Source of the DNA: Gammaproteobacteria bacterium
GTDB taxonomy: Bacteria; Pseudomonadota; Gammaproteobacteria; Pseudomonadales; Azotimanducaceae
NCBI GenBank assembly: GCA_028821125.1
Contig: JAPPHD010000110.1
Span: forward strand, 1 to 33,227
Length of the DNA: 33,227 bases
Direction: 5' to 3'
Shown: positions 2,562-21,235 of the stretch, piece after piece
Position numbering within the stretch: position 1 is the stretch's first letter
How the letters are laid out: each line of letters begins with the position of its first letter
Program-made: the position numbers and the translations under genes
The notes under the pieces: generated by a model
Told to the model about the DNA's origin: nothing
Seen by the model: the letters and a program-made list of their open reading frames with translations, nothing else
The model's database searches: none

Positions 2562-5297
2562 ATGGCGATGGCTCCCGCGCAGCACGGCACCGATTCGGAA
2601 GAGAACATCCTCTATCTGTCGTCACATCTGCGGCCGCCGCACTACAGTATCGACCTTGTTGAACGCCCGGGGCTCGCCGCACAACTCGACCGTGCCGGGG
2701 CGCACCGGCTGATGCTCGTGCATGCACCCGCGGGGTTCGGCAAGACAACGGCGCTGTATCAGTGGGCGAACCGTCTGCAGGCGCGTGGCGTGCCGGTCTG
2801 CTGGTTGAGCGTCGGCCATGAAGACAGCGATTCCCACCGATTCCTGTATCACCTGCAGTGCTCCATTGCCGCGGCCCGCAACGACGCCTATCCACTGAGC
2901 GGTTTCGCTGGCCGTTCTTTCCGGAAACGGAGCCTCCAGGCCGACATCGACGCAATCATCGCGCGCCTGACAGCGGGAGAACGGTTGGTGCTCATCATCG
3001 ACGACTACCACCTGGCGGAGTCCGCCAGGAACGACCGCATCCTCAACGAGCTCGTCAAGGCACTCGACGGCCCTGTCACCATCGCGATCAGCAGCCGGGC
3101 CAGGCCCGCGCTCTCCCTGCCTTATTTCCAATGTCAGGGCCTGCTCGCTTCCATCGACGCATCGACGCTTCGTTTCTCGGAAGACGAATGCCATGCGCTG
3201 TTTGCGACCAGCGGACTGGCTTGCGCGGCAAGCACCCTGTACCGGCAGTCGGGGGGTTGGCCCATGGCACTGCAACTGGCCAAGCTCTGGCTGCGCGAAG
3301 GCGCAGACCCGGAACATCACCCCGAACTCGATGCCGACGCCGCGGGAATCACCGAATATCTCACCGGGGAAGTGATTCGCAAGCTTCCTCCCGAAGTTGC
3401 CGGCCTGTTACTGGACACTTCGATCCTCGAGCGTGTGAACGGTGATGTCGCCAACCGCCTCACCGGCCGTGACGATTGCTGGGCCCTCATCGACCGGCTT
3501 GCCGCCCTGGACGCCCTCATCGTCCCGTTGCAGGGCCGCGGCGGATGGTTTCGCTACCACCCGTTGTTCCGTGAAATACTGCAGGGCCAGCTCGCCAGCC
3601 GGGGTGCCCCGTACGTTGCGGAGTTGCATATCCGCGCGTGCAATTGGTACGCGGAACAGCGCGAACTTGAAAGCGCGGTGATGCACGCGGCGCAGGCACG
3701 GGACAGCGAACGCATCGCGGCATTGATCGAGTCCGAAGGGGGCGTCCGGATTGGATTGACCAGGGGAATGCCAGTACTGCGACGGCTGTTGCGCACGCTG
3801 TCGCCTGAGGTGGTCTATACCCACCCACGCCTGCATCTGGCGCAGATCTGGCTACTGGCGAAACAGGGAGAAGTCCCCATCGCGCGTAGTCAGTACGACC
3901 AGTACTTCGACAACGGCGCCTTGCGGCCCGACTCGCGCAACAGAGCCTGTTCCGACACCGAAAAGGAGTCGCTGTTTGTCGGCATGATGCTCGCCGAAGT
4001 CTACGAGGACAAGGATTTCGACCGCACCGAAATCGAGCGTATCGAATCCGTTGCAAGGGACGTCGCCAGCGTCGACCACTGGTTCCAGGGTTGGGTGAAC
4101 AACCTGCTCTGCATCATGCATACGCGCAAGGGCAACTTCGATTCCGCCCTGGCGGCCAGCGAGGCGGCGGACTTCCACTATCGGCGGGTCGGCTCGGAAT
4201 ACGGTCAGGTGTGGATGCTGCTGCACCGGGCGCTGGTCAGCCTGCTCGACGGCCGCCTCGAGGATGCCGCACGGACGATCGGAAACGCCGCCGGACGGGC
4301 AAGCCGCGAATTCTCGAACGACTCGGGGCTGATCGGCATCATACGTATCGTCGAGAGCGCCGTACTGCTTGAGCGGGGCGAGACGGGCCGGGCCGCGGAA
4401 GGCCTGTTCGATGCACTGGCCACGGCAGAGAAAGCCGAGGGTTGGGTCGAGGTTTTCGTGCAGGGTTTCCGCGCCGCTATCGAGTTGTCCCGGCTCAACG
4501 ACGGCGTCGAGGTGGCAACGCAGCACGTCGAGGGAGCAATGCGGATCGCCCGGGAACGTTCCCTGCCGCGGCTCGCGCGGCTCGCGACCCTGTTCCGGAT
4601 CGAGCTGCATACCCTGTGCGGCCGTCTGGACGACGCGGTTCGCCTCACCCGGTTCCACGGCCTGGCGGTCGATTCGTTGCCCCGGCTTGAGGAGGAAGGT
4701 TGGCAGGAGCGCGTGCGCAAAGCGGTGGTGCTGGCCCGGCTCGCCATCTACCGGGGCGCCATAGGGGAAATCCTGGATCCTCTTTACCGCTATGTCGAAG
4801 CTGCCGAAGCCAGCGGTCGACGGCGTGTGGCCATGGAACTGTCCGTAGTGCTGGCCATGGCCGAGTACGAACGGGGCCGGCGCGGCCCCTGCGTCGAGGC
4901 ATTACGGAATGCACTCGACGTCGCCGTCCCGGAGGGGTTTCATCAGGTATTCGCCCGAGAGGGCAGGCTCATGGCCCGTATGCTCGATGAGACCATTCGC
5001 CATATCGGCGTCGCCTCGATGAGCAAAGAGACGGTTGCCTTTCTCGCGAGGCTGGTCGCCGGGCTCAGACAGCCGGACGACGGGAACCGTCCCGCCGCCG
5101 CATCCAACATTCTCACCCACAAGGAACTGGAAGTACTGAAACATGCGGCCTGCGGCAATCCCAGCAAGATCATAGCCCGTCGCCTGAACGTATCCGTCGC
5201 CACGGTCAAGTATCACTTGAGCAACATCTACCGGAAGCTCGGCGCCCGCAGCCGGATCATGGCGGTTGCCATAGCGAGGGAGCACGATTTCCTCTAG
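2562..5297 (+). CDS. MalT-like LuxR-family ATP-dependent transcriptional regulator
   Basis: This 911-aa protein has the STAND/MalT (LAL-type) architecture. A Walker A APAGFGKT lies at 55-62 and a Walker B LIIDDYH at 144-150. A winged-helix-like linker and a long helical TPR-like region (about 380-820) follow. A C-terminal LuxR helix-turn-helix (about 845-911) carries LTHKELEVLKHAA and SVATVKYHLSNIYRKLGA. Family members bind an inducer and ATP, oligomerise and activate promoters. ATG 2562 is used; a second in-frame ATG lies at 2568, and neither has a strong Shine-Dalgarno sequence. The stop is directly followed by the hydantoinase region (an in-frame TTG abuts it at 5298). The parsimonious role is activation of that downstream catabolic operon and perhaps of the upstream receptor. 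The inducer is unknown. Confidence 0.93.
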   Translation: MAMAPAQHGTDSEENILYLSSHLRPPHYSIDLVERPGLAAQLDRAGAHRLMLVHAPAGFGKTTALYQWANRLQARGVPVCWLSVGHEDSDSHRFLYHLQCSIAAARNDAYPLSGFAGRSFRKRSLQADIDAIIARLTAGERLVLIIDDYHLAESARNDRILNELVKALDGPVTIAISSRARPALSLPYFQCQGLLASIDASTLRFSEDECHALFATSGLACAASTLYRQSGGWPMALQLAKLWLREGADPEHHPELDADAAGITEYLTGEVIRKLPPEVAGLLLDTSILERVNGDVANRLTGRDDCWALIDRLAALDALIVPLQGRGGWFRYHPLFREILQGQLASRGAPYVAELHIRACNWYAEQRELESAVMHAAQARDSERIAALIESEGGVRIGLTRGMPVLRRLLRTLSPEVVYTHPRLHLAQIWLLAKQGEVPIARSQYDQYFDNGALRPDSRNRACSDTEKESLFVGMMLAEVYEDKDFDRTEIERIESVARDVASVDHWFQGWVNNLLCIMHTRKGNFDSALAASEAADFHYRRVGSEYGQVWMLLHRALVSLLDGRLEDAARTIGNAAGRASREFSNDSGLIGIIRIVESAVLLERGETGRAAEGLFDALATAEKAEGWVEVFVQGFRAAIELSRLNDGVEVATQHVEGAMRIARERSLPRLARLATLFRIELHTLCGRLDDAVRLTRFHGLAVDSLPRLEEEGWQERVRKAVVLARLAIYRGAIGEILDPLYRYVEAAEASGRRRVAMELSVVLAMAEYERGRRGPCVEALRNALDVAVPEGFHQVFAREGRLMARMLDETIRHIGVASMSKETVAFLARLVAGLRQPDDGNRPAAASNILTHKELEVLKHAACGNPSKIIARRLNVSVATVKYHLSNIYRKLGARSRIMAVAIAREHDFL

Positions 5298-5417
5298 TTG
5301 CGGATCACGCGTACGAAGGCTACTGGCCAACTTTTCGGCGCAGCTAGCCGTTTGAACAGTTGGATGTCCGGACCGGGTTTGCATACTGCGAGTGTCGATA
5401 TCGGTCGAGAAACGCAG

Positions 5418-7016
5418 GTGCGGCTCGGGGTTGACGTAGGAGGTACCAATACGGACGCGGCGCTGCTCGGCGAACGCGGCGTGGTTGCATCGGTGAAAAC
5501 ACCCACGACGGCGGATGTCGGGGGCGGAATCGACGACGCGATTCGCAAGGTGCTCGCAACGGGAACCAACTTTCGCGACCTCATCGAGGCGGTGGTGATC
5601 GGCACCACCCACTTCACCAATGCGTTCGTCGAACGCAAACGGTTGAACGAGGTGGGCGTCATTCGCCTCTGCCTGCCCGCTGCGAGGGATCTGGCGCCCA
5701 TGGCGGGGTGGCCGGATGAATTGCGCCGCCGCATGGGTAGCGGTGTTCACCTCGTTCCCGGGGGCTATGAATTCGACGGCCGCGAAATCGCGCCGTTCGA
5801 TGCATCGGCGGTACGCCATGCGGCCCGTTCGCTTCGGGCGCAAGGCCTGCGTGCCGTAGCCATATCGTCAATATGTTCGCCGATGAACAGCGACATGGAG
5901 CGTTCAGCCGCGAAAGTCGTGCTTGACGAGATACCGGAGGCGGCAATAACCCTGTCGAGCGACATCGGCAGGATCGGGCTGATTGAACGGGAGAACGCGA
6001 CGATCATGAACGCGGCCCTCGCCGACCTGTCCAGCCAGGTGACCCGGGCCATTCGCGAAGCGTTGCTCGGTCTCGGTATCGACGCTCCGTTCTACCTGAG
6101 CCAGAACGACGGCACGCTGATGCAGGCGGATTTCGCCGAGCGCTATCCGGTCATGACCTTCTCCTCCGGCCCCACAAACAGCATGCGCGGCGCCGCCTGG
6201 CTCTCCGGGGTGCGAAACGGCATCGTGGTCGATATCGGCGGAACCACCACGGACGTGGGCGCCCTGGTCGAAGGCTATCCCCGCGAGTCGTCGCTGCCGG
6301 TCGATATCGGTGGGGTGCGCACCAATTTCCGCATGCCGGACGTGGTCGCAATCGGTTTGGGCGGGGGCAGTATCGTCACCGACAGCCACGGCCTGCGTAT
6401 CGGTCCCGAATCCGTCGGTTTCCGCCTCCCGGAAAAAGCCAGGATATTCGGCGGCGACACCCTGACCGCCACAGATATCGTCGTCGCCGCGGGGCATGTC
6501 GACATCGGCGACCGCCGGCGCGTCCGCAAACTTGGCTCCGCCTTCGTGGACAGGGTGCTTGCACGGATGAACGCCATGGTCGAAGACGTTATCGACACCG
6601 TCAAGACATCGGCGGACGATGTGCCCGTGGTGCTGGTCGGGGGCGGCTCCATACTGGTAACCGACGACCTGCGCGGCGCCGAGCGCATCGTCGTGCCGGA
6701 GCGCCCCGGCGAGGCGAACGCCATCGGGGCGGCCATGGCTCAGGTGGGCGGTCTCGTTGACAGGGTATTCTGCTACCGCGACACGCCCCGCTCGGAGGCG
6801 GTGGCAATGGCCACGGGCGAGGCAACCCGGCGCGTGGCCGAAGCCGGAGGCGATGGGGAAGCGGTGGAAATCGTCGATTTCGAGGAGGTTCCCATGGCCT
6901 ACAGCGGCAACGATTCCGTCAGGATTCGTATCAAGGCCGTAAGCGATCTGCGTGCGCAGCGTGCGGAAACCGCGCAAGCGATGCGCCAAGACGGCGCCCC
7001 CCGGCCAAGGCACTAG
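5418..7016 (+). CDS. Hydantoinase/oxoprolinase family ATPase subunit (HyuA-like, short form)
   Basis: This is a sugar-kinase/Hsp70-fold ATPase of the hydantoinase/oxoprolinase family, which uses ATP to open five-membered cyclic amides. Counting from GTG 5418, the protein is 532 aa. It begins RLGVDVGGTNTDAALL (phosphate-binding loop, 2-17), followed by IGTTHFTNAF (61-70). A second ATPase-type loop VDIGGTTTDV lies at 271-280, after FSSGPTNSMRGA (248-259). Glycine-rich GLGGGS and LVGGGS motifs lie further on. Family members usually begin right at the RLGVDVGGTNTDA strand, hence GTG 5418. An in-frame ATG (5364) and a TTG abutting the regulator stop (5298) are alternatives. It is the short form without a HyuB domain, the type that often pairs with DUF917 proteins, and such a gene starts 17 bp downstream. 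The true substrate (hydantoin, thiohydantoin or oxoproline-like) is not determined. Confidence 0.9.
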   Translation: MRLGVDVGGTNTDAALLGERGVVASVKTPTTADVGGGIDDAIRKVLATGTNFRDLIEAVVIGTTHFTNAFVERKRLNEVGVIRLCLPAARDLAPMAGWPDELRRRMGSGVHLVPGGYEFDGREIAPFDASAVRHAARSLRAQGLRAVAISSICSPMNSDMERSAAKVVLDEIPEAAITLSSDIGRIGLIERENATIMNAALADLSSQVTRAIREALLGLGIDAPFYLSQNDGTLMQADFAERYPVMTFSSGPTNSMRGAAWLSGVRNGIVVDIGGTTTDVGALVEGYPRESSLPVDIGGVRTNFRMPDVVAIGLGGGSIVTDSHGLRIGPESVGFRLPEKARIFGGDTLTATDIVVAAGHVDIGDRRRVRKLGSAFVDRVLARMNAMVEDVIDTVKTSADDVPVVLVGGGSILVTDDLRGAERIVVPERPGEANAIGAAMAQVGGLVDRVFCYRDTPRSEAVAMATGEATRRVAEAGGDGEAVEIVDFEEVPMAYSGNDSVRIRIKAVSDLRAQRAETAQAMRQDGAPRPRH

Positions 7017-7033
7017 CCGGACGGGAGAGAGTT

Positions 7034-8143
7034 TTGCACCTGGAATCCGGAGACCTTGCCGACTACGTTCGCGGCGCCGCGATGCTTGGCGCCGGTGGTG
7101 GCGGCGATCCATACATCGGGCACCTGATGCTGCAACAACTCTTTGCCCAAGGCCGCAAGCTCTCCATCATACCCCCGGCCAGTCTCCGGGACGACGATCT
7201 GGTCGCTTCCGTGGCGTGCATGGGGGCACCCACGGTAATGACGGAGAAACTGCCGAGCATCGATGCCCTGGCACTGGCGCTGCAGGAGCTCGAAGCGCAG
7301 GTAGAGCGCGAGGTGTCCGCGATCATTCCCCTCGAGATCGGCGGCATCAACGCAACGGTGCCACTTGTACTGGCATCTCATCTCGGTCTGCCGGTGGTCG
7401 ATGCCGACGGTATGGGACGCGCGTTTCCGGAGATCCAGATGGTGACTTTCGGCGTCGGCGGATGCCCCATTTCCCCGATCGTGGTCACCAACGAGCGCAA
7501 CGACATCGTCATCGTGCAGTCAGACGACAACAAGCAGGGAGAGGACCTCGCGCGCAGTGTGGTCACCCGGATGGGCGGCATGGCGCAGATCGCGCTCTAT
7601 CCGATGTCGGGTTCCGAGGCCAGGCGCACCTGCGTTCCCGAAACTCTCGGGCTGGCGCTGGCGATCGGGCGCAGCATCGGCGGCGCGGGAGCCGCCGGCC
7701 TCGATCCGTTCGCGTCGCTGTTCGTGGAACTCGAGAAATCCCAGCCCGGACGAAAATGCGGAATCCTCTTCGACGGCAAGGTTGTCGACGTGTGCCGGGA
7801 GACCCGGGGCGGCTTCAACGTCGGAGCGGTCAGCCTGCGCGGGCTCAACGGTGACGGGGGCGCATTCGAGGTTCACTACCAGAACGAGAACACGGTGGCT
7901 TACCGGGACGGCAAGGTCGTTGCCGTCGTGCCCGACATTATCGCGATATTGGATCGGGAAAGTGCAGAGCCCGTGACCGCGGAGCGGGTGAAGTACGGCC
8001 AGCGCGTGAAGGTTCTCGCTCTCACCGTGCCTGGCGTCATGACGACACCGGAAGCCCTGGCGACCTTCGGGCCGTCCGCATTCTCGATCGACGTCGCCTA
8101 TCGTCCCTTTTACGAATATCGATGCCGTCCCTCGCCCGCCTGA
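7034..8143 (+). CDS. DUF917 / S-Me-THD family protein
   Basis: This 369-aa protein matches the DUF917 family, whose Pfam domains are now named after S-methyl thiohydantoin desulfurase. Seen directly: an N-terminal glycine-rich GAAMLGAGGGGDPYIG (14-29), the middle segment PLVLASHLGLPVVDADGMGR with FPEIQMVTF, and a C-terminal domain with a KCGILFDGKVVDV stretch. Length and motif order fit the family. The start is a TTG at 7034, 4 nt after GGAGAG (7024-7029). No upstream ATG fits as well. It sits 17 bp after the HyuA-like gene, and its last 22 bp overlap the permease gene, so the three are probably co-transcribed and translationally coupled. A role in cleaving a thiohydantoin- or hydantoin-like ring with the HyuA-like partner is inferred from family naming and context. 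Confidence 0.88.
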   Translation: MHLESGDLADYVRGAAMLGAGGGGDPYIGHLMLQQLFAQGRKLSIIPPASLRDDDLVASVACMGAPTVMTEKLPSIDALALALQELEAQVEREVSAIIPLEIGGINATVPLVLASHLGLPVVDADGMGRAFPEIQMVTFGVGGCPISPIVVTNERNDIVIVQSDDNKQGEDLARSVVTRMGGMAQIALYPMSGSEARRTCVPETLGLALAIGRSIGGAGAAGLDPFASLFVELEKSQPGRKCGILFDGKVVDVCRETRGGFNVGAVSLRGLNGDGGAFEVHYQNENTVAYRDGKVVAVVPDIIAILDRESAEPVTAERVKYGQRVKVLALTVPGVMTTPEALATFGPSAFSIDVAYRPFYEYRCRPSPA

Positions 8144-9387
8144 CCGACGACCACGCACGCGGCCCGGTCCCTCAAGGCGAGGGAGTCAGCGGGTGGCGCG
8201 TGGCGATGGTGATCGTGGGCTTTGCGATTACCCTGCCGCTGATGCTCACGGGATCGCGCATGGGGCTTGCCCTGGGTGTGGGCAACGCCCTGCAGGCCTT
8301 TGTCGCCGGCGGCCTGATCCTGATGGTGGCTGGTTCCCTGACCGCCATGGTTGCGGCGGACGCGCGCCTGTCGACTTACAAGATCCTCGAGTTTTCCTTT
8401 GGGCGAAGCGGCGCCAAGCTGGTAAGTGCACTCCTCGCTCTGACGCTGTTCGGCTGGTACGGCGTCACCGCGGCACTGTTCGGCGATGCGCTTCGTGCCG
8501 CGGCAATGGACATCCACGACGTTCACCTGAACACCGTGACAGGCATCGTCGTCGGCAGCTCGCTGATGATTGCGGTTACCGTTTTCGGCTTCAGGGCGCT
8601 CGATCTCCTGTCGGTAATCGCCGTCCCCCTGCTCGTCACGTTCCTGCTGGTGCTTGTGGCGCGGACTGTCGAAGACGTCAACGGCCAATCCGGCCAGAAC
8701 CCGGGCGATATCGACCTTGGCGTAGCCGTCTCAATGGTCGTGGGCACCTATATCGTGGGTGTCGTACTGGTACCCGATCTGTGCCGCTACGCGCGATCGG
8801 TTCGCCAGGGCGTACTGGCGATTGTCGCCGCCCTGGGTGTCGGCCTGCCTTTCGTGCTGGCCGCATCGGCGGTACCGAGCGTCGCGGCGAACGACGACGA
8901 CCTGGTGGCAATCATGGTGAAGCTGGGCCTGGGCGCACCGGCGCTGTTCGTGATCGTATTCGCCACCTGGACGAGCAACGCGAACAACCTGTACTCCACC
9001 TCGCTCGGCCTGGCCGCGGTGGTCGAACGGGTCGCGAAGTGGAAGATCACGGTGGCGGCAGGCATCGTCGGCACCCTGGTGGCGATCGGCGGGATCACCG
9101 ACTACTTCATGCCGTTTCTGCTCGCCCTGGGCATCGCCATTCCTCCGGTGGCCGGCATTTACCTCGTCGATTACTTCGTCGTGCGGGGTCGGGGCTTTTT
9201 CGCGGAAAGGCGCGCGGTGGACGTTGCCCCTTTTAACCCGGCCGCGTTCGCAGCCTGGCTGCTGGCTACCGCCACAGGCGCGGTCACGGTGGGTGACTGG
9301 TTCGCCCTGACCCGAATCCCTGCATGCGACTCCCTGCTGGTTGCGGGGCTTCTTTACTTTTCGTTCCAAAGACTGTCGAAACGGTGA
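8122..9387 (+). CDS. NCS1-family permease (cytosine/purine/hydantoin-type transporter)
   Basis: This 421-aa inner-membrane protein has about twelve hydrophobic helices and resembles the CodB branch of the nucleobase:cation symporter-1 family. These carriers import cytosine, purines, allantoin, hydantoins or thiamine precursors with H+ or Na+. Typical features are the first-helix segment LPLMLTGSRMGLALGVGNAL and the region FATWTSNANNLYSTSLGL, a conserved helix-8-like motif. The ATG at 8122 lies inside the end of the DUF917 gene (22-bp overlap), indicating coupling. As third gene of a HyuA-DUF917-permease operon it probably imports the cyclic substrate attacked by the first two products. The 183-bp stretch after it holds no gene, but holds the left repeat and the promoter of the toxin-antitoxin pair. 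Confidence 0.9.
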   Translation: MPSLARLTDDHARGPVPQGEGVSGWRVAMVIVGFAITLPLMLTGSRMGLALGVGNALQAFVAGGLILMVAGSLTAMVAADARLSTYKILEFSFGRSGAKLVSALLALTLFGWYGVTAALFGDALRAAAMDIHDVHLNTVTGIVVGSSLMIAVTVFGFRALDLLSVIAVPLLVTFLLVLVARTVEDVNGQSGQNPGDIDLGVAVSMVVGTYIVGVVLVPDLCRYARSVRQGVLAIVAALGVGLPFVLAASAVPSVAANDDDLVAIMVKLGLGAPALFVIVFATWTSNANNLYSTSLGLAAVVERVAKWKITVAAGIVGTLVAIGGITDYFMPFLLALGIAIPPVAGIYLVDYFVVRGRGFFAERRAVDVAPFNPAAFAAWLLATATGAVTVGDWFALTRIPACDSLLVAGLLYFSFQRLSKR

Positions 9388-9570: not shown

Positions 9571-9921
9571 ATGCAGGTTGACAAGCTAGTAGAAAATCAA
9601 GTCTTTTCGCCGGCACTGATCGCCCACGAACTCCGCACGACCAAGCGCGAACTCGCCGGTACGCTCGGACTCGCCAACGATGCGTTCACCCGCACCGCGA
9701 GAATCCGCGCACGCAAGTCCCAGACTCGGCTGCGCCAGATGGTGGAAATCATGAACCGCATCGAACCGGAACTCGATTCGCCGATTGCCGCCTACGCGTG
9801 GTTCCGCAGTGCCAGGCTTCCCGGTTTCGGGGGTGCGACGCCACATATGCTGGTGCGCGACGGCAAGAGCGAGCACGTTCACGCCTACCTGGACCGCGTC
9901 GCTGCGGGCGGGTATGCCTGA
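9571..9921 (+). CDS. Xre/MbcA/ParS-family antitoxin
   Basis: This 116-aa protein is the likely antitoxin of the RES toxin encoded next to it. It has an N-terminal helix-turn-helix-like segment (about 10-50: ELRTTKRELAGTLGLANDAF) followed by the MbcA/ParS/Xre toxin-binding region (about 55-116: MVEIMNRIEPEL, AYAWFRSARLPGFGGATP, LVRDGKSEHV, YLDRVAAGGYA). The W-F-R and GG.TP.L pattern is typical of that C-terminal domain. Family antitoxins plug the toxin active site and repress the operon. A purine-rich GAAGG (9551-9555) lies 15 nt before the ATG, longer than ideal. The RES gene starts 14 bp after the stop, the usual antitoxin-first order. The tandem CATCACGCT boxes over the -10 suggest autoregulation. 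Confidence 0.88.
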   Translation: MQVDKLVENQVFSPALIAHELRTTKRELAGTLGLANDAFTRTARIRARKSQTRLRQMVEIMNRIEPELDSPIAAYAWFRSARLPGFGGATPHMLVRDGKSEHVHAYLDRVAAGGYA

Positions 9922-9935
9922 CGGCCGTCGCCGGC

Positions 9936-10445
9936 ATGCGCCTTCGCGGGACGGTCTACCGCGCCCACAACCCCGAATGGGCGTGGACGCCGCTCTCAGG
10001 CGAGGGCGCGCGCCGTTACGGCGGACGCTTCAACAGGCGAGGCCAACCCGCCCTCTACTTTTCCGTTTCACAGATCACCGCAATACGCGAGGCCACGCCA
10101 CTGGGCAGACCCATGCAGCCACTCACGCTCTGCGCTTACGAGGTCGATGCGGAGCCCGTCTTCGATGCCGCCGATCCGGCGCGACTGCGGGAACATCAAG
10201 TGCTCGAAGCCGATCTGGCCTGTCCCACGTGGGAAGTCGACATGCTCGAACGGGGTATCGCCGCGTCCCAACGTCTCGCCGAACGATTGGTCGCAGCCGG
10301 CTACGTGGGCATGCTCGTCTGCAGCTTCGCCATCGGGGCCGGCAAGGAAGACCTGAACCTCGTAATGTGGCGCTGGGGAGATGCCTACCCGGCCAGCGTC
10401 ACGGTAATCGACGAAGAGGGTCGCCTGAAGCGCCGCCAACGATGA
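9936..10445 (+). CDS. RES-domain toxin
   Basis: This 169-aa protein is a single RES domain. Family toxins attack NAD+ (MbcT-type phosphorolysis) or ADP-ribosylate a target (ParT-type). Seen directly: VYRAHNPEWAWTPLSGEGA and RRYGGRFNRRGQPALYFS near the N-terminus (7-43), a downstream Glu in AIREATPLG, and a C-terminal CSFAIGAGKEDLNLVMWRWG. The R, E and S positions that name the family can all be placed (YR, REATP, CSF). The ATG at 9936 gives the canonical start. Longer in-frame starts run back through the antitoxin gene and add sequence unlike the family. The gene lies 14 bp after its antitoxin and is followed by the right copy of the flanking repeat. No truncation is visible, so the toxin is probably functional. 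Confidence 0.9.
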   Translation: MRLRGTVYRAHNPEWAWTPLSGEGARRYGGRFNRRGQPALYFSVSQITAIREATPLGRPMQPLTLCAYEVDAEPVFDAADPARLREHQVLEADLACPTWEVDMLERGIAASQRLAERLVAAGYVGMLVCSFAIGAGKEDLNLVMWRWGDAYPASVTVIDEEGRLKRRQR

Positions 10446-10589: not shown

Positions 10590-11117
10590 TCACCCTTCCC
10601 GTCTCGGCAAGTCGTCGGTGCGGCTGCCCAACTGGTCGCCGAAATACTCGATCAGCTCCACGATGTGCCCGTCCGGGTCTTCGAAACAGACGACGCCCTG
10701 GACGCCGATGACCGGATCGGGGTCACGCACGGGGTTGATTGGCTTGAAGCCCCGGCTCTCGAGGTCTGCGGCAGCGGCATGGACGTTTTCCGTAAGCAGC
10801 GCCATCACGCGAGGAATACGTTCATCGAGCGGCTTGCCGTCGTTGGGGTTGCGCCAGCGGGGCTTCACCCACTCGATGAGGTCGATGCGGGTCTGCAATT
10901 CGTCGTCGTGGGGCAGCACCAGTTGAACGGCCCGGCCCTGGGCGCCGGGAATCATGTTGAAATTGTCGCCCACATAGTCCGGCCATTGGACTTCGCGGTT
11001 GTCCTTGATGGGCTCGAACCCGAAGTGCGCGTAGAACGCCATGGACCGCTCGACGTTGGTGCACGGCAGGATGAAATGGAAAATGGAGCGCGCGCGCCAG
11101 TTGCCTTGCTCAGCCAT
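10590..11117 (-). CDS. VOC-superfamily (glyoxalase/bleomycin resistance/dioxygenase) protein
   Basis: This 175-aa protein has the paired beta-alpha-beta-beta-beta modules of the vicinal oxygen chelate fold. Its first half has the metal-binding-type His in RSIFHFILPCTNVERSMAFY (10-29). Its second half ends with GVVCFEDPDGHIVELIEYFG (141-160), containing the usual metal-ligand Glu in VEL. VOC enzymes include glyoxalases, epimerases, extradiol dioxygenases and resistance proteins, and the exact activity cannot be assigned. The ATG (11117) is 2 bp after the stop of the TonB receptor, so the two form an operon driven from the TetR-type operator near 13290. An open frame extends upstream to 11960, but that stretch is antisense-frame shadow of the receptor. 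Confidence 0.88.
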   Translation of the reverse strand: MAEQGNWRARSIFHFILPCTNVERSMAFYAHFGFEPIKDNREVQWPDYVGDNFNMIPGAQGRAVQLVLPHDDELQTRIDLIEWVKPRWRNPNDGKPLDERIPRVMALLTENVHAAAADLESRGFKPINPVRDPDPVIGVQGVVCFEDPDGHIVELIEYFGDQLGSRTDDLPRREG

Positions 11118-11119
11118 CG

Positions 11120-13255
11120 TCACCCGCTCCAGCGCCAGCCGACCCGCACACCGTAGGTGCGCGGCGGGTAATAGGTCACGAAGCTGTTGCTGCCGGTGGA
11201 CAGGCCGTCGGACACGGTCAGGCCGCGCTGGTTGTCCTCGTCGGTCACGTTCTTCGCGAACAGGTCCACCACCCATCGGTCGCCGGCGCCCGTCCACATC
11301 AGCCGGAGGTCCAGGGTGTGGAAATCGTCCCCCTTGTGCCGGTCGATGTTCTGTACCCGGTAATACACATCGTCCTGCCAGTAGAAGTCCATGCGAGCCG
11401 TAACGGCGGTGCCGTTCGCCAGAAGCCAGTCGTACTGGGCCGTCAGGGCGGTGGTGAACTCCGGCGCCCGGTTCAGCGTAGTGCCGTCGAGCGAGATGGT
11501 GGGCGAGAACTGGTAGCGGTCGAACTCGGCGTCGAGCCAGGTGACCGCGGCGTTCAACTGCAGATTGTCCACCGGGATGAAGGTGCCTTCCACCTCGATC
11601 CCCTGAATCGTCGCCTCGGCGGCGTTGTCGGTGGTGAACAGGGTGAACAGCAGGAAGTTGACCTGCAGGTCCTGGTAGTCGTTGTAGAAGGCGGAGACGT
11701 TGACCTGGGCGCGGTCTTCGAGGAACTGGCTCTTGAGACCCAGTTCGAAGGAATCGACGATCTCCGGGTCGAACACGTCGAACTGCCCGATCGAGAAGCC
11801 GCCGCCCTTGTACCCATGCGAATAGCTGAGGTACGCCATGGCGTCCTCGGCGAAGAACCAGTCGATGCCGACCTTGCCGCTGATCTCGTCCCACTTCTCC
11901 TCCATCACGGCCGCGAGGTCCACGCCGAACGCCGGGATCTGCTGGAACTCGTCGATCCACTTCTCGTCCTGGGTCCAGCGCAGGCCGCCGACGATCCGGA
12001 ACGGTGCGCCGCCGGCATCCCGGAAGTCGTAGGACGCCTGGCCGTAGAGGGCCACAGACTCCGTTTCGAGCGCGCCGCCGTTCATGAAGACGAAGCCGGC
12101 GATGGAGCTGTCCTCGAAGAAATAGTCCGTCTCCAGGTCCTCATCGAAGTAGAAGGCGCCCAGAATCCATTCCAACGGTCCCTCCGCGGTGGAGACGAGC
12201 TGCACTTCCTGGGTGAACTGGTCGGTTTCCATGTGCCATTCCTGGAATTGCACGGCGTTGTCGGACATGTCGATGTCGGTGTCCTGATACCACTCGTTGT
12301 CGATGTAGCCGGTGGTGGCCACCAGTTCCGCGAAGCCGAGATCCCAGGTCAGCTTCCCCGAAAAATAGCGGTTATCCAGATCGAGGTTTTCGGGATGGTT
12401 CTTCGCGACCTTGCGCGGATCGGTGGGATTGGGTGTCGCCCCTTCGTAGACGTTGATGACGAATCCCCCGCCGAAATCAACGGGCCCGAACGGTTCCCGC
12501 CGTTTCTGCGACTGGCGGCCCTCGCTGTCGAACAACTGGGCGGTCAGCACGATGTCGGCGCTCTCGCCGAGGTCGAACTTGAGCTTGCCCCGCACGGAGG
12601 TGTAGTCGGTCTGGTCGCCGTCATCACCGGCGGAGTTCTGCTGGTAGCCGTTGTCGCTGTCGCTGATGAACGACAGGCGGCCGGAGACCCCGTCGGCGAA
12701 ACCGCCGCCGAAGGCCGCCCGGACGCGCTGACGGCCGTAGTTGCCGATGGTGACGTCGATGTTCGCATCCGGTTCCGCACTCGGGTCCCGGGTGATCACG
12801 TTGATCGACCCGCCGGTGGTGTTGCGTCCGTAGAGCGTGCCTTGCGGTCCGCGCAGCACCTCCACCCGTTCCAGGTCCCACATGTCGCCCGGCATCGCCG
12901 ACGGCTGACCCACGTAGATGCCGTCGACGTGATAGGCGACGCCCGGGTCGAAACCCGCAACCAGTTGGTCCGAACCGATGCCGCGGATATAGGCGTAGGT
13001 GACCGGCGACTGGGAGTTGTGGCTGATGACCAGGTTGGGCGCGGAGAACTGCAGGTCCTCCAGTTCTTCGATACCCCGGAGATCCAGTTCCTCGCTGCCG
13101 TACGCGGTGATGGCGATGGAGGTTTCCTGCACCGTACCGGCACGTTTCTCCGCGGTGACCAGCACCTCTTCGATGACCTGCCCATGGGCGGTATTCGCCG
13201 CCAGGACCACGGCCGTGAGCAATGCGGGCAATGCCCGAACGATGATTTGCATCAT
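11120..13255 (-). CDS. TonB-dependent outer-membrane receptor, TetR-controlled
   Basis: This 711-residue receptor has a signal peptide (about 1-25, ending NTAHG before QVIEE) and a TonB box IEEVLVTA (28-35). The plug domain contains RIEVLRGPQ-like RVEVLRGPQGTLYGRNTTGG and SINVITRDP. The barrel ends with PRTYGVRVGWRW. The ATG at 13255 is preceded by a strong AGGAGAGAG Shine-Dalgarno sequence (13257-13268); a second Met directly follows. Plug variants with RNTTGGSINV are common in receptors for organic nutrients rather than siderophores, but the ligand is unknown. The VOC gene follows 2 bp after its stop. The promoter carries a perfect palindrome that recurs upstream of the monooxygenase operon, so import is probably derepressed by the compound that operon degrades. 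Confidence 0.93.
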   Translation of the reverse strand: MMQIIVRALPALLTAVVLAANTAHGQVIEEVLVTAEKRAGTVQETSIAITAYGSEELDLRGIEELEDLQFSAPNLVISHNSQSPVTYAYIRGIGSDQLVAGFDPGVAYHVDGIYVGQPSAMPGDMWDLERVEVLRGPQGTLYGRNTTGGSINVITRDPSAEPDANIDVTIGNYGRQRVRAAFGGGFADGVSGRLSFISDSDNGYQQNSAGDDGDQTDYTSVRGKLKFDLGESADIVLTAQLFDSEGRQSQKRREPFGPVDFGGGFVINVYEGATPNPTDPRKVAKNHPENLDLDNRYFSGKLTWDLGFAELVATTGYIDNEWYQDTDIDMSDNAVQFQEWHMETDQFTQEVQLVSTAEGPLEWILGAFYFDEDLETDYFFEDSSIAGFVFMNGGALETESVALYGQASYDFRDAGGAPFRIVGGLRWTQDEKWIDEFQQIPAFGVDLAAVMEEKWDEISGKVGIDWFFAEDAMAYLSYSHGYKGGGFSIGQFDVFDPEIVDSFELGLKSQFLEDRAQVNVSAFYNDYQDLQVNFLLFTLFTTDNAAEATIQGIEVEGTFIPVDNLQLNAAVTWLDAEFDRYQFSPTISLDGTTLNRAPEFTTALTAQYDWLLANGTAVTARMDFYWQDDVYYRVQNIDRHKGDDFHTLDLRLMWTGAGDRWVVDLFAKNVTDEDNQRGLTVSDGLSTGSNSFVTYYPPRTYGVRVGWRWSG

Positions 13256-13281
13256 GTTCTCTCTCCTCTTCCTGCAACAGG

Positions 13282-13310
13282 TTTATATAACACTTGTTAT
13301 ATAACGTCTA
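13282..13310 (-). promoter_or_regulatory. Promoter with TetR-type operator for the receptor-VOC operon
   Basis: Reading the minus strand, TAGACG (13305-13310) and TATAAA (13282-13287) are separated by 17 bp, a good sigma-70 spacing. The spacer and part of the -10 are covered by a palindrome with half-sites TTATATAACA and TGTTATATAA around a central 2 bp (13283-13304). All 10 positions of the half-sites are complementary. The TetR gene ends 38 bp away, and a closely matching site lies at 16162-16175. Confidence 0.78.
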
Positions 13311-13347
13311 CTTGGCCCCCGACTCGCGGAGGAATCTGCGTATTCGA

Positions 13348-13998
13348 TCAACTTGGCGCCCGACGACCCTTTAGCCGTCGTTCGGCGGAATCGCCTGATT
13401 TGTGGGTACACCCGTACAACCGTTCCAGATAACGATCCACCAGGCCGGCTACCCGCTTTTGCGAGCCCCTGGCGCCGGCCATCAGGTACTGCACTCCGGC
13501 GCCGTCCACCAGCGCCGCGATCGCACGCGCCTCCTCTTCGATCCGGATCGAATCCGGCAGTTCCCCGTCTTCGACGGATTCCTCGAGGGTCTCACCGATC
13601 CTGCCGAGCCATTCCCGGTAACGCCTCCGCTCTTCCCTGCGCATGTCTGCACTCGTTTCCGAGCGATGCCACATGGCCACCCAGGCACGCCAGCGTCCGG
13701 CTGAAGCGCGATCCGCAGGCAGTGCCTGCAGCATGAGTAGGCGCAGCGCCGCCCGCCCGCGGCTGGTTCGCTTCGTATCCACCATGCCCGCGCGGACCTG
13801 ATCGCCGAAGTGGTTGAGCGCCTGCTGAATCAGTTCTTCCTTGTCTCCGAAGTAGTGGACCAGCGCGCCGGTGGTGTATCCCGCCCTCTCCGCAACCGCA
13901 CGCACCGTCGTGCCCTCCAGGGAGCGTTCGAGAATGGTCTCGCAGGCGGCTTCGATGAAGTCCTGGCGGCGCCTGGCGTGGTCGACGATCTTCGGCAT
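13348..13998 (-). CDS. TetR/AcrR-family repressor (BetI-like N-terminus)
   Basis: This 216-aa protein has the TetR fold. Its N-terminal DNA-binding domain (about 10-57) has TTVRAVAERAGYTTGALVHYF (30-50) followed by GDKEELIQQAL, close to the BetI-type pattern. The C-terminal helical domain (60-205) would bind an inducer and dimerise. The ATG at 13998 is 6 bp after the stop of the cyclase gene, making it the last gene of the monooxygenase-cyclase-tetR operon. Two matching palindromes, one in its own operon promoter (16162-16175) and one in the receptor-VOC promoter (13283-13304), are the obvious targets. It therefore probably autoregulates and coordinates uptake with degradation. The inducer is unknown. 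Assignment of operator to this protein is inferred from proximity and symmetry. Confidence 0.9.
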   Translation of the reverse strand: MPKIVDHARRRQDFIEAACETILERSLEGTTVRAVAERAGYTTGALVHYFGDKEELIQQALNHFGDQVRAGMVDTKRTSRGRAALRLLMLQALPADRASAGRWRAWVAMWHRSETSADMRREERRRYREWLGRIGETLEESVEDGELPDSIRIEEEARAIAALVDGAGVQYLMAGARGSQKRVAGLVDRYLERLYGCTHKSGDSAERRLKGRRAPS

Positions 13999-14004
13999 GG
14001 GCGC

Positions 14005-14943
14005 CTACAGCAGCGCGACGGGATTCAGGGGCGAGCCGGTGCCGCCGGGGATCTTCAGGGGCGCGATGGTCAGCAGGAATTCGTATCGCTTCAACCGCCG
14101 GCAATGCTCCGCGAGCGCATCGGTGTCGAGATTGTGCAGCAGGGCCATGCCCATGCCGCAGATGCCGAGGTAATGGATGGGTATGGGCCACCCGGGACAG
14201 TCCCAGTTGGGTTGGGGGTCGTTCATGTAGTCGCTGCCGAGGATGGACACGCCCCGCTCATGGAGCCAGGGGGCGCATTCGGGGTGCAGGCCGGGCATGC
14301 CGGTGACGTTCGGGTCCGTGTGGCCCTCAACGGCTACCCTTTTCTGGCGGCCCTTGTGGACGATCAGTACGTCTCCGGGTTCAACGCGAACGCCGCCTGC
14401 TTCTTCGGCGCGGCTCAATTCATCCGCCGTAATCCGATGGAACCCGTCCAGGGTTCGCGTTTCCGCTGCCGACGGCAGGTCGAGCAGCACGCCCCGGGTG
14501 ACGATTCCGTCCGCCATCGGCGTCATGTCGTTGCGCACCGCGCCGGTGCTTCGGACATCGGATGCCGGGTAGCCGTTGTACATCCGCTCGCGCACAAAGA
14601 CGTGGCAGAGCGCATCGATGTGCGAACAGGCGATGCCGTGATGCTGCACGCCGATATAGTCGAGCGCCACGCAGAGGCCGGGTACGCCCGGATAGTGAGG
14701 GTCGTCTCCGGCCCGTATCATGCGGTGTTCCGCCGGCCAGCCGTTGTGCGGGCCGGGCGCGGTCGGCCAGGGGTTGCCGAGGCCGACCGGGATGCCTTCG
14801 GAGACGAGCCTGCTCGCCGCCACGCGTTTCTCGGGGGTAATCAGGTTGAGCGCGCCCGCCTGGTCGTCGTCGCCCCACCGCTTCCAGTTGCAGACCCGTT
14901 CCCAGAGGGACTCGCAATATCGTGGGGTTACGTCGTTTGCCAT
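14005..14943 (-). CDS. Cyclase-family metal-dependent hydrolase (kynurenine formamidase-like)
   Basis: This 312-aa protein belongs to the cyclase family (PF04199 type), which includes bacterial kynurenine formamidase and isatin hydrolase and typically hydrolyses amides or lactams using Mn2+ or Zn2+. The family motif HxGxxxDxxxH appears as HHGIACSHIDALCH near residues 110-123; the usual GTH is replaced by ACSH. Further matches are GDVLIVHKG in the middle and HPECAPWLHERGVSILGSDYM. ATG 14943 (MANDVTPRY) is chosen over an open extension to 14973, which overlaps the upstream monooxygenase stop. The spacing to that gene is 13 bp, and the TetR gene follows after 6 bp. It is about 40-100 aa longer than minimal KynB enzymes and typical of the larger cyclase-family subgroup. 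The substrate is probably the product of the partner monooxygenase (inference). Confidence 0.87.
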   Translation of the reverse strand: MANDVTPRYCESLWERVCNWKRWGDDDQAGALNLITPEKRVAASRLVSEGIPVGLGNPWPTAPGPHNGWPAEHRMIRAGDDPHYPGVPGLCVALDYIGVQHHGIACSHIDALCHVFVRERMYNGYPASDVRSTGAVRNDMTPMADGIVTRGVLLDLPSAAETRTLDGFHRITADELSRAEEAGGVRVEPGDVLIVHKGRQKRVAVEGHTDPNVTGMPGLHPECAPWLHERGVSILGSDYMNDPQPNWDCPGWPIPIHYLGICGMGMALLHNLDTDALAEHCRRLKRYEFLLTIAPLKIPGGTGSPLNPVALL

Positions 14944-14956
14944 GGTTGCCTGCGGC

Positions 14957-16144
14957 CTACCGCGCCGTCTCATCGAAGTGTGGAATGCACTTCTCGCCGA
15001 TCAGGGCGATGGTGTCCATCACCGCTGCATGGGGAACTTCGCCCATCTGCACCAGGCACATCAGGCGGTCCATGCCGATGTCCCGGAACCCCTCCATCTT
15101 CCGCATGCAGGTGCGCACGTCGCCGACGATGACCGAATCGATGTGGCGGATGGTCTCGAAGATCTCCTCGTTGGAGATTTCTTCCCCCGCGAACTCCCGC
15201 TTCATCAGGCTGACCACCGGGTTCGGATCGGACGTGTCGGTCGGGTCCGGCACCTCAAGCTCCGTCAGGGCGACGGTGGACGGACGCGAACGGGGGTCCG
15301 TCTGCCCGCGAATGGCCTGATAGAAGATCTCTCTCGGCACGTTGAATACCCGCGGCGCGGAACTGACATACCAGAGCGCGGACCGGGGCGCCCCACTCAT
15401 CACCGCCTTCTTCTCGCTCCTGTCGACATGAACGAAGGTGGCCACCGCCGTCTGCTCGTTGACGGTTCGCCCGTTGGGTTCGAACGCCGCGATGGCCGCG
15501 CGATAGGCCTGCGTCATGGACTCCAGCGCATCGATCGGCGCGAACAGCGTGGTGGCGAGCACGCCCACGCCCATCTGCCCGGCCCGCTCGAAGGACGGCG
15601 GGCTCGAGCAGGTATGCCATAACGGTGGATGCGGTTGCTGGACGGGTTTCGGCAGCACCGTTCGCTCCGGAACGGTCCAGTGCCTGCCGTTCCAACTGAA
15701 CGCCTCGTCCTGCCACGCGCGGGGCAGCATTTCCGTCAGTTCCACGAGGTCGTCCACGGAGGACTCCTCCGAGACATTGAAGGTCTCCCACTCCCTGCCC
15801 CCGGACCTGGCGAGGCCCACCTCGAGCCGGCCACCGCTCAGGTTGTCCAGCAACGCGGCCCGCTCCGCCGCGCGCAGGGGATGGTTGATCTTGAACGGCG
15901 CCAGCACGCCGGCATGGCCGAGGCGCAACCTCTCCGTGCCGGCGGCAATGGCCTGCAGCACCATTTCCGGGCAGGAGCTGTAACTGAATTCCGGCGTGCA
16001 GTGATGCTCGACCTGCCACCAGCAATTGAAACCGGCCCGGTCCGCCGCCTGCGCCTGTGCCACGGTTTCCTCGAACAATTGAGGAAACCCGCCGTTGGCG
16101 TCACAATCGCGCTTCTGGAGTTCAGTGAAGATGTCGAGTTTCAT
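14957..16144 (-). CDS. Luciferase-like flavin-dependent monooxygenase (LLM class)
   Basis: This 395-aa TIM-barrel protein is of the bacterial-luciferase-like class, which uses FMNH2 (or F420H2) and O2. Typical elements are the first strand KLDIFTELQ, WWQVEHH near 42-48, LRLGHAGVLAPFKINHPLRAAE (second barrel segment), and LDNLSGGRLEVGLARSGG. The C-terminal half carries VNEQTAVATFVHV. The length suits the alkanal-monooxygenase-like subgroup. ATG 16144 is chosen; an in-frame TTG lies 6 bp upstream, and no clear Shine-Dalgarno sequence is visible, so a short leader is likely. It is the first gene of a three-gene operon with the cyclase-family hydrolase and TetR. A palindrome overlaps its promoter. 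A plausible scheme is ring or C-C oxidation followed by hydrolysis, but the substrate is unknown. No flavin reductase gene is adjacent. Confidence 0.9.
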   Translation of the reverse strand: MKLDIFTELQKRDCDANGGFPQLFEETVAQAQAADRAGFNCWWQVEHHCTPEFSYSSCPEMVLQAIAAGTERLRLGHAGVLAPFKINHPLRAAERAALLDNLSGGRLEVGLARSGGREWETFNVSEESSVDDLVELTEMLPRAWQDEAFSWNGRHWTVPERTVLPKPVQQPHPPLWHTCSSPPSFERAGQMGVGVLATTLFAPIDALESMTQAYRAAIAAFEPNGRTVNEQTAVATFVHVDRSEKKAVMSGAPRSALWYVSSAPRVFNVPREIFYQAIRGQTDPRSRPSTVALTELEVPDPTDTSDPNPVVSLMKREFAGEEISNEEIFETIRHIDSVIVGDVRTCMRKMEGFRDIGMDRLMCLVQMGEVPHAAVMDTIALIGEKCIPHFDETAR

Positions 16145-16161
16145 GTGCAAGGGGCGTAAAC

Positions 16162-16203
16162 ATAACAGGCGTTATATTAAGGCCGTGCAATTCGGCACGT
16201 CAA
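16162..16203 (-). promoter_or_regulatory. Promoter with TetR-type operator for the monooxygenase-cyclase-tetR operon
   Basis: On the minus strand TTGACG (16198-16203) and TAATAT (16174-16179) are 18 bp apart. Overlapping the -10 is ATAACA-GG-CGTTAT (16162-16175). It matches the receptor-operon palindrome core ATAACA-CT-TGTTAT at 11 of 12 half-site positions. It lies 18 bp upstream of the monooxygenase ATG. Confidence 0.72.
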
Positions 16204-16246
16204 TCGACCGCCCGACACACCGCCGGACCGGCTCCCAGGGTCTAAC

Positions 16247-16795
16247 ATGTCGTATGCCATAACACCCCCACAAACGATGGCCACGCTGATACTTGCCGCA
16301 ATCGCACTCGGTTGCCTGGCGATTGGCGTTCGCCTGTTCAATGTCGAGACCTCCGAAACCTGGATGGCCTGGAGCGTGGGAGGATCGGTGGTGCTCGTCG
16401 TTGCGTTGGCGGGCCTGTTCGTCTACTTCCTGTGGGGCGCTTTCCGTTCGACCGTCACCATCGGGAACGACTCGGTCCGTCTGCAGGTGCCGATCTACGC
16501 CGCGACGGTCCCGCTGAACTCGATCGACGCAGAAGGCGCGAGGCTTCTCGAACTCACGGAAAACCGCGAATTCAAACCGGCGATCCGCACCAACGGGCTG
16601 GGAATTCCCGGCTACCAGTTGGGCCATTTCAGGCTGAACAACGGGCACCGTGCCCGGCTCGCGTTAACGACAAGGTCAAGCGTCGCCTATGTTCCGCTAG
16701 ACAGGCGCACGGCGCTGCTCCTGAGTGTCGAGGAAGGTGAGGATTTCATCGCGGCACTCAAGAGCGCTGCCGCACGCCTGGAGCCTGCAACATAG
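16247..16795 (+). CDS. Bacterial PH-domain-like membrane protein
   Basis: This 182-aa protein has two N-terminal hydrophobic helices (about 10-30 and 42-65) and then a soluble beta-rich domain. The motif RTNGLGIPGYQLGHFRLNNG (about 120-139), followed by VAYVPLDRRTALLLS, is characteristic of a bacterial pleckstrin-homology-like family (PF10882 type). Such proteins are membrane-anchored and of unclear function. The ATG at 16247 lacks a strong Shine-Dalgarno sequence, but the hydrophobic N-terminus begins directly after it. It is divergent from the luciferase-like operon and 67 bp upstream of an alpha/beta hydrolase, with which it may be co-transcribed. A role in stress or envelope sensing would be speculation. 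Confidence 0.75.
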   Translation: MSYAITPPQTMATLILAAIALGCLAIGVRLFNVETSETWMAWSVGGSVVLVVALAGLFVYFLWGAFRSTVTIGNDSVRLQVPIYAATVPLNSIDAEGARLLELTENREFKPAIRTNGLGIPGYQLGHFRLNNGHRARLALTTRSSVAYVPLDRRTALLLSVEEGEDFIAALKSAAARLEPAT

Positions 16796-19912: not shown

Positions 19913-21235
19913 ATGTCCGAAACACGGGAAGAAATCGCCGAATCGTTCCGGCAGAACACCAGGGAATGGCAACAGTCCTGGGCGATCGATGTCGATGTGG
20001 ACCCGTGGGACCTCCCGCTCGAGGAGATGGACCCGGCCCATCCGGAACTGTTCCGCGCCAACAAGGTGCTGCCCTGGTTCGAGCGGCTGCGCGCGGAGTC
20101 CCCGGTGCACAGGTGCGCGAACAGTCAGTTCGGGCGGTTCTGGTCCATCACCCGCTACGACGACGTGAAGTACGTGGACACCCACCACGACCTGTTTTCG
20201 TCGGACATCTACAACGGCGGCATCCGGCTTGGCGGCAAACCCCTGGAAGGGCCTCCGGACCCCATGTTCCACCTGCCCATGTTCATCATGGCCGACCCGC
20301 CGGTGCATGAACAGCAGCGCAAGGCGGTAGCGCCCATGTTCGCGCCTTCCAAGCTCGGGAGGCTCGCCGAACTGATCCGCAGGCGGGCGGCAAGGATCCT
20401 CGATGAACTGCCCCGGGACGAGACCTTCAACTGGGTGCGGCGCGTCTCCGTCGAGTTGACCGGGCAGATGCTGGCGACGCTGTTCGACGTGCCCCAGGAG
20501 GACCGCCACAAGCTGATCCACTGGTCCGATACCGTGGAGCGCATTGCCGACCCCGACTATTTCGAAACTGCCGAGGAAGGTTTCAGGGAACTGTGGACCT
20601 GCTTCGAGTACTTCAATGCCATCTGGCAGGAACGGGTGGCGAAGGCGGACCAGGGAGAAGACTTGATTTCGTTTTTGGCCCGGGGCGAGGCGACGCGGAA
20701 CATGTCGCCCAGCGAGTTTCTGGGCAACGTTCTGCTGCTCATCGTCGGGGGCAACGACACCACCCGCAACTCCATTACCGGCGGCGTCCTGGCGCTGAAC
20801 CAGTTCCCGGGCGAGTTCGAGAAACTCAAGGCGAATCCCGGCCTCATTCCCAACATGGTGCCGGAGATCGTCCGCTGGCAGTCACCGGTTGCCCACATGT
20901 GCCGCACCGCCCTGGCGGATACCGAGATTCGCGGCCGGAAGATCCGCAAATGGGACAAGCTGTGCATCTGGTACCTTTCAGGCAATCGGGACGAAAGGCA
21001 CATCCCCGATCCCAACCAATTCCGGATCGAACGCCCGCAGGTGCGCAATCATCTGGCCTTCGGCTTCGGTATCCACCGCTGTCTGGGCAACCGTCTCGCG
21101 GAAATGCAGCTCGGCATCATCTGGGAGGAGATTCTCAAACGCTTCCGGGAAGTGGAGGTCGTCGGCGAGCCGAAGTACCTCTATTCGAATTTCATCCGGG
21201 GGATCACCGAACTGCCGGTGCGGGTTCGGGAGTGA
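19913..21235 (+). CDS. Cytochrome P450, CYP153-like
   Basis: This 440-aa soluble bacterial P450 has the I-helix oxygen-activation motif VGGNDTTR (278-285), the ExxR pair E318/R321 (EIVRW) and the heme loop FGFGIHRCLGNRLAE with thiolate Cys390. The segments LLIVGGNDTTRNS, WYLSGNRDE and HLAFGFGIHRCLGNRLAEMQ are hallmarks of the CYP153 family. Those enzymes hydroxylate terminal carbons of alkanes, fatty acids or cyclic hydrocarbons and need a ferredoxin and a ferredoxin reductase. Neither partner is encoded in the window, so electrons must come from elsewhere. The N-terminal extension (1-45) is acidic and typical of the family. Assignment to CYP153 is by motif memory, not alignment. The gene appears monocistronic. 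Confidence 0.92.
   Translation: MSETREEIAESFRQNTREWQQSWAIDVDVDPWDLPLEEMDPAHPELFRANKVLPWFERLRAESPVHRCANSQFGRFWSITRYDDVKYVDTHHDLFSSDIYNGGIRLGGKPLEGPPDPMFHLPMFIMADPPVHEQQRKAVAPMFAPSKLGRLAELIRRRAARILDELPRDETFNWVRRVSVELTGQMLATLFDVPQEDRHKLIHWSDTVERIADPDYFETAEEGFRELWTCFEYFNAIWQERVAKADQGEDLISFLARGEATRNMSPSEFLGNVLLLIVGGNDTTRNSITGGVLALNQFPGEFEKLKANPGLIPNMVPEIVRWQSPVAHMCRTALADTEIRGRKIRKWDKLCIWYLSGNRDERHIPDPNQFRIERPQVRNHLAFGFGIHRCLGNRLAEMQLGIIWEEILKRFREVEVVGEPKYLYSNFIRGITELPVRVRE

Follow-up and report, generated by a model that had tools for sequence, protein, structure and literature searches.

The stretch of DNA analyzed here (the window) is one whole contig, C82, of 33,227 bases, from a genome of the gammaproteobacterial family Azotimanducaceae. 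It contains a module of five genes, all on the minus strand, together with two matched palindromes that are, judged from their letters, copies of one putative operator, RTAACRNNYGTTAY. Three of the genes form operon A, in which the genes for a luciferase-like flavin monooxygenase (LLM), a metal-dependent hydrolase of the "cyclase" fold (CYC), and a TetR-family regulator follow one another at intervals of 13 and 6 bp. Operon B consists of a gene for a TonB-dependent outer-membrane receptor (TBDR), followed by a gene for a protein of the VOC superfamily (VOC). One palindrome stands upstream of each operon (Table 1).

Table 1. Positions of the putative control elements and of the five module genes in the window
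Feature	Positions	Strand	Length	Evidence or placement
Putative operator 1, TTATATAACACTTGTTATATAA	13283-13304 (core 13287-13300)			Upstream of TonB receptor gene
Putative operator 2, ATAACAGGCGTTAT	16162-16175			Overlaps putative -10 element, upstream of LLM operon
Putative promoter of LLM-CYC-TetR operon, TTGACG-18-TAATAT	16174-16203	minus		Sole promoter-like match
LLM, luciferase-like flavin monooxygenase	14957-16144	minus	395 aa	PF00296, E 8.5e-44
CYC, PF04199 "cyclase"-fold metal-dependent hydrolase	14005-14943	minus	312 aa	PF04199, E 5.8e-18
TetR-family regulator, BetI-type C-terminal domain	13348-13998	minus	216 aa	PF00440 and PF13977, both above cut-off
TBDR, TonB-dependent outer-membrane receptor	11120-13255	minus	711 aa	PF07715, E 3.9e-16
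VOC-superfamily protein	10590-11117	minus	175 aa	PF00903, E 1e-8

Two matched palindromes at the operon promoters

Operator 1 was read from the sequence as half-sites TTATATAACA-CT-TGTTATATAA and operator 2 as ATAACA-GG-CGTTAT, one mismatch short of perfect symmetry; the two sites are identical at 11 of 12 half-site positions. Scanning the window for ATAACANNNGTTAT with up to two mismatches returned seven matches (shuffle mean, 0.81; 0 of 100 shuffles reached seven), and operators 1 and 2 were the only places matched without a mismatch. Exact RTAACRNNYGTTAY was found at two places in the whole 5.28-Mb genome (193 contigs), both inside the window, and the stricter pattern ATAACANNYGTTAT, with one mismatch allowed, matched one further place in the genome, on contig C114.

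A promoter scan of positions 13000 to 16400 on both strands gave only the match listed in Table 1, directly before operon A; since shuffled sequences gave a mean of 0.5 matches, TTGACG-18-TAATAT is, taken alone, weak evidence. Operator 2 overlaps the -10 element of this putative promoter, so the operon that encodes the TetR carries its own putative operator. Operator 1 is bracketed by TAGACG-17-TATAAA, a weaker pair that was read by eye and that the scanner did not report.

Conservation of the operators within and beyond the family

The family sample comprised 200 genomes, with the genome of the window included among the counted carriers. Relatives of LLM (E ≤ 1e-90) and of the receptor (E ≤ 1e-150) were each present in 14 of the 200, the identical 14 genomes in both cases, and a close TetR (≥46% identity) was present in 12, the window's among them. 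Exact operators stood before both LLM and the receptor gene in 12/12 genomes with a close TetR; in one of these, G033, the module halves lie on two contigs, with the receptor half and its operator on the second. The gene order LLM-CYC-TetR-TBDR-VOC was constant in 11/11 complete contigs of this close group, window included. The two LLM and receptor carriers without a close TetR were G047 and G093. The module of G047 is diverged, with a TetR of 37% identity, a different gene order, and only one-mismatch versions of both operators. That of G093 is split by contig ends, with LLM and part of CYC opening one contig and VOC and part of the receptor gene closing another; it is a 13th genome with an exact LLM operator, and its receptor start lies off the contig.

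Across 12 loci (the window and L035 to L045), 23 exact matches were found, all at the two promoter positions, versus 0.0 expected from 20 Markov-1 resamplings of each locus. These counts bear on whether the palindromes are chance products of AT-rich promoter DNA, which favors such letters, the pattern showing no genome-wide excess in the family. That explanation is refuted by conservation and placement, with the operator at both promoters in 12/12 genomes, and its probability is practically negligible.

In 7/12 receptor promoters (L036 and L038 to L043) and 3/13 LLM promoters (L036, L038, and L185), the main site is directly adjoined, at a spacing of exactly 14 bp, by a second operator-like 14-mer that matches at 10 or more of the 12 positions. 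Mean scores over the receptor promoters were 6.8 and 7.8 of 12 at -14 and +14, versus mostly 3 to 5.6 elsewhere. The window has flanking half-sites only and no full second operator. These tandem 14-mers suggest that two TetR dimers may sit side by side. The abutting copies at the seven receptor promoters could also reflect a more complex response, in which the TetR serves as an activator of one or both operons, or needs a second signal, instead of acting as a simple repressor. TetR-family activators are known, but operator 2 over a predicted -10 element and operator 1 between a -35 and a -10 read by eye occupy the classic position of a repressor, and such a response is considered very improbable.

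GTDB genomes were scanned with the LLM alignment, and the best 80 of 167 relatives were kept as loci. Twelve of the 80 (L050 to L059, L061, and L110) are family modules again and, for that reason, are not independent of the family count. Among them, L050 (CAMAVY010000040.1) is titled as a Klebsiella pneumoniae metagenome-assembled genome (MAG), and its module matches G027:C40 of the window's family; the title looks misassigned. The remaining loci include Phenylobacterium and other Alphaproteobacteria, Myxococcota, Chloroflexi, and actinobacteria, and the bulk of the operator matches outside the family are alphaproteobacterial. Versions of the module with shuffled gene order are found in Alphaproteobacteria and also on L107, a 7-kb contig assigned to a Myxococcota bin; as a single short MAG contig, L107 may have been placed in the wrong bin.

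The motif was defined on the family loci before it was applied to the 80 loci, in which it gave 81 exact matches; two control patterns gave 0. Seventy-five matches fell in 34 of the 39 TetR-bearing loci and six in 5 of the 41 loci without a TetR match, the module being cut by a contig or locus end in all five. Outside the family there were 61 matches, and the motif was present in 24 of 28 TetR-bearing loci. Every one of the 81 is upstream of a module gene at a distance of no more than 400 bp (three also overlap an aligned gene stretch): 67 before LLM, TBDR, VOC, CYC, or TetR genes, 13 between SDR and BVMO genes, and 1 before an amidohydrolase gene. An inverted-repeat search made without the motif returned seven loci, of which L068, L090, L093, and L107 share the core and three have other sequences. 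In 25 whole genomes with such loci, exact matches were found in 22, for a total of 60 (53 of them module sites), versus 41 for the reversed control pattern, and the complete genome G209 had two exact matches, both in the module.

The co-encoded TetR and its recognition helix

The N-terminal helix-turn-helix (HTH) region of the regulator scored 50.5 bits against PF00440 (cut-off, 24), which places the protein in the TetR family, and the combination of PF00440 and PF13977 is the domain architecture of BetI-type repressors. The protein is, by its profile scores, not BetI itself (76.2 versus a 118-bit cut-off for PRK00767 and 73 versus 201.3 for TIGR03384). Its AlphaFold2 model (mean pLDDT, 84.6) is all-helical, with ten helices, one of them at 43-50, and an HTH region; the recognition helix of the protein reads TTGALVHYF. 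Among the best 50 fold matches, the nearest solved structure was 2nx4 (TM, 0.79/0.87).

Recognition helices were compared in a table of 70 TetR rows from the family and GTDB-scan loci. The helix T[TS]GAL[VT]HY[FV] was found in 46 rows from 36 distinct genomes, and an exact site was found for 46/46, within 1.4 kb in 42 rows and elsewhere in the module in the other four (L015 and L053, which are the same genome, L087, and L102). Only 3 of the 24 rows with other helices had an exact site within 1.4 kb; two of these have the near-identical helices TTGSLTHYF and TTGVLTHYF, and the third (L086) is a second TetR beside the module TetR. For L094 (helix TTGALVHYY), the exact site lies further away, before LLM. 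Diverged TetRs with the helix STGALAHY[FY] stand near LLM in L062, L074, and L085, which lack the operator; in these loci, operator and helix may have diverged together.

Taken together, these observations are best described by a compact, self-regulated catabolic module in which the local TetR would repress both operons through the shared operator and would be induced by a compound, a reading to which we give a probability of about 83%. The TetR, encoded third in operon A, would bind RTAACRNNYGTTAY as a dimer, occupying the operator before its own operon and the one before the receptor-VOC operon and thereby blocking RNA polymerase at both promoters. A small molecule, either the imported compound or an early product, would enter the BetI-type pocket and cause the TetR to release the DNA, after which the receptor and the oxidizing and hydrolyzing enzymes would rise together and the TetR would reset the system. 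Dimer binding, repression, and relief are proposed from knowledge of the family and from operator placement. A preliminary description of the window had reported the two palindromes, with agreement at 11 of 12 half-site positions, and had read them as marking a TetR regulon. The palindromes are real and their agreement was confirmed, and conservation and placement strongly support one putative operator common to both operons, which the co-encoded TetR probably reads. The check that the preliminary description had proposed, conservation in related loci, came out in its favor: the operator is present upstream of both operons in all 12 close-TetR genomes, window included, and recurs in modules outside the family.

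Several points weigh against this reading. The letters of the operator are too common to serve as proof by themselves, because the reversed control pattern occurs three times in the genome of the window versus two occurrences of RTAACRNNYGTTAY; the weight is instead carried by position and conservation. Genome-wide, the pattern was no commoner than its reversed control in 16 family-survey genomes (45 exact matches versus 52) and only somewhat commoner in the 25 other genomes (60 versus 41), so that isolated operator matches elsewhere mean little. The conservation of 1.8 bits per base at the eight TAAC/GTTA positions, versus 0.28 (LLM) and 0.35 (receptor) in the poorly conserved flanks, is in part a product of selecting the sites by pattern. 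The match between helix and operator is an association and not a set of independent events, because the helix pattern was written after the table had been made and both elements are inherited. No exact match was found in 5 of the 39 loci with a TetR; L061 and L098 retain sites with one mismatch, and in L062, L074, and L085 even such sites are missing. Finally, the operator also lies close to three TetRs of 28 to 37% identity outside the module (L019, L021, and L030), so that a paralogous TetR could share the sites.

This last point is what favors an explanation in which the palindromes belong to another regulator, either a paralogous TetR encoded elsewhere or a global factor, and the local TetR has a different target. 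L019, which has a matching helix, and L021 adjoin PhyH (phytanoyl-CoA dioxygenase) genes (L048:8225 and L049:9890). Within the modules, however, the operators track the co-encoded TetR and its recognition helix through rearrangements that place them in TetR-TBDR, TetR-VOC, and BVMO-SDR gaps, and no other regulator visibly owns the sites, since the genome of the window has only two exact ones. Control by a different regulator is accordingly rated improbable. The operator is, on the sequences compared, a property of this TetR lineage and wider than the module, and the lineage may control other oxygenases too, given its PhyH neighbors.

Exact matches outside modules numbered 21 in the family-survey genomes and 7 in the 25 other genomes. 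Nineteen of these 28 were inspected by tblastn with the module proteins as queries: two lie beside TetRs of the lineage (L048 and L049), one lies beside a P450 gene (L171), and 16 have no module relative nearby. The exact operator at L171:3422, in G187 and away from the module, stands ~30 bp upstream of the P450 gene, whose product is 51% identical to that of the P450 gene at 19913-21235 of the window. A second LLM (52% identity) is encoded in the same genome as the window (G000:C126:920-2107, L187), with an amidohydrolase-like gene on one side and an epoxide-hydrolase-like gene on the other, both identified by eye in open reading frame translations; no TetR relative and no operator were found within the 12 kb examined around it.

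The proposed system, a locally autoregulated TetR catabolic regulon, is of an ordinary kind. The same operator at both operon promoters, conserved together with the regulator, was found in 12/12 genomes, as expected of an autoregulated regulon. KstR2 was among the fold matches of the TetR model, and the module can be likened to local degradation regulons such as those of KstR2 and AtuR, in which one TetR acts through a palindromic operator at several catabolic promoters. The gene set differs from those systems, and operator and substrate are probably different as well; no steroid or terpene marker was recognized among the module genes.

Gene products and possible substrate

The roles that the preliminary description had assigned to the five genes are right at the family level, as judged from profile matches. 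LLM scored 150.6 bits against PF00296 (cut-off, 27.9), and its E46-H47-H48 motif is invariant in 13/13 aligned sequences; in luciferase-like monooxygenases the EHH region is catalytic, with a role for the histidine. LLM is like the MupA/Atu3671 and MsnO8 groups of PF00296 in fold family and EHH motif, but its listed scores against the NCBIfam models for these groups were far under cut-off (best, 108.8 versus 244.45 bits). CYC scored 65.9 bits against PF04199 (cut-off, 23.1) and has H108, D110, and H114 invariant in 13/13 sequences. This HxDxxxH pattern, presumably the metal site, is common to cyclase/kynurenine formamidase-like hydrolases of PF04199. The catalytic motifs of LLM and CYC thus appear intact, as far as alignment can tell. 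The single solved relative of CYC was 5ibz (E 6.5e-45), deposited as "Uncharacterized protein." The VOC protein was assigned to PF00903 only; its AlphaFold2 model (mean pLDDT, 87.7) matched generic glyoxalase/dioxygenase-superfamily members of mixed function among the best 50 matches, with which a dioxygenase, an isomerase, or a binding protein would all be compatible. No NCBIfam model scored above cut-off for any of the module enzymes.

The combination of receptor, oxygenase, hydrolase, and VOC protein behind one putative operator suggests that a compound is taken up and broken down oxidatively. The preliminary description had gone further and proposed a complete uptake and ring-degradation pathway with an amide/lactam-type hydrolase. 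Its regulatory part is strongly supported; completeness, ring opening, and amide or lactam action go beyond the evidence, the enzymes being assigned only to PF00296, PF04199, and PF00903 and having no informative solved relative. The pathway may extend beyond these five genes, because the alphaproteobacterial modules add SDR, BVMO-like, amidohydrolase, and acyl-CoA carboxylase-like genes, and the first three of these also carry the same operator. With these additions, the gene set resembles the oxidation of cyclic alcohols or ketones to lactones and acids, which we offer as a guess.

The module might instead make, modify, or detoxify a secondary metabolite rather than feed on it. The best solved relatives of LLM, 7bip ("Luciferase-like monooxygenase") and PuwE (6ket), are natural-product enzymes, and TnmS1 and TnmS3, which bind antibiotics, are among the many proteins that the VOC model resembles. 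Against this, the TonB receptor gene stands under the same operator in 12/12 close-group genomes, no synthase or efflux gene was found among the annotated recurrent neighbor families (not every neighbor being annotated), and the alphaproteobacterial SDR, BVMO-like, amidohydrolase, and carboxylase genes fit catabolism. A secondary-metabolite role is therefore considered rather unlikely.

Searches for a clue to the substrate gave generic results. Profile searches of solved structures returned only the uncharacterized cyclase and generic relatives, and the best 50 fold matches each for VOC and TetR were likewise generic. A plasmid search returned one LLM record (30.9% identity), which has a cyclase ~64 kb away, and 24 cyclase records (at most 41.5% identity among the 20 matches listed). 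A hydantoin or thiohydantoin substrate, considered because of the HyuA, S-Me-THD, and NCS1 genes at 5298-9387, was rejected, as these genes have no operator copy. Among the family and GTDB-scan loci, the window and G047 are the only ones with these genes next to the module; in L095, a 26% HyuA match lies 8 kb from LLM.

Positions 164-9387 of the window hold a TonB receptor gene and a LuxR-type regulator gene (both named by eye), along with genes for hydantoinase A, S-Me-THD (DUF917), and an NCS1 permease, with no operator copy; the LuxR-HyuA-DUF917 set also directly adjoins the diverged module of G047 (L061). Between the permease and VOC genes, at 9571-10445, lies an Xre/RES-type toxin-antitoxin pair (PF08808 above and PF09722 just below cut-off).

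No report of the module or its operator was found in the open-access full-text literature, searched at listing level and with most subscription papers outside its scope; within that literature, both appear to be unreported. That the module is conserved in distant lineages suggests that its compound is common in the environment, and degradation genes for such a compound were without assignment in the open-access papers searched. We consider it an even chance that one TetR lineage and the same RTAACRNNYGTTAY control an undescribed pathway for a widespread compound in Gammaproteobacteria, Alphaproteobacteria, and perhaps Myxococcota. If so, the 14-bp site would serve as a tag for the gene list of the pathway (LLM, PF04199, VOC, TonB receptor, SDR, BVMO, and amidohydrolase), because the operator stays fixed while the genes around it are reshuffled. 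For five loosely named genes, the analysis proposes a single unit of regulation and metabolism that can be tested, in which the operator is defined and the regulator probable. The TetR itself may offer a ready biosensor for finding the compound, as any molecule that makes it leave the operator would be the likely substrate or its product.

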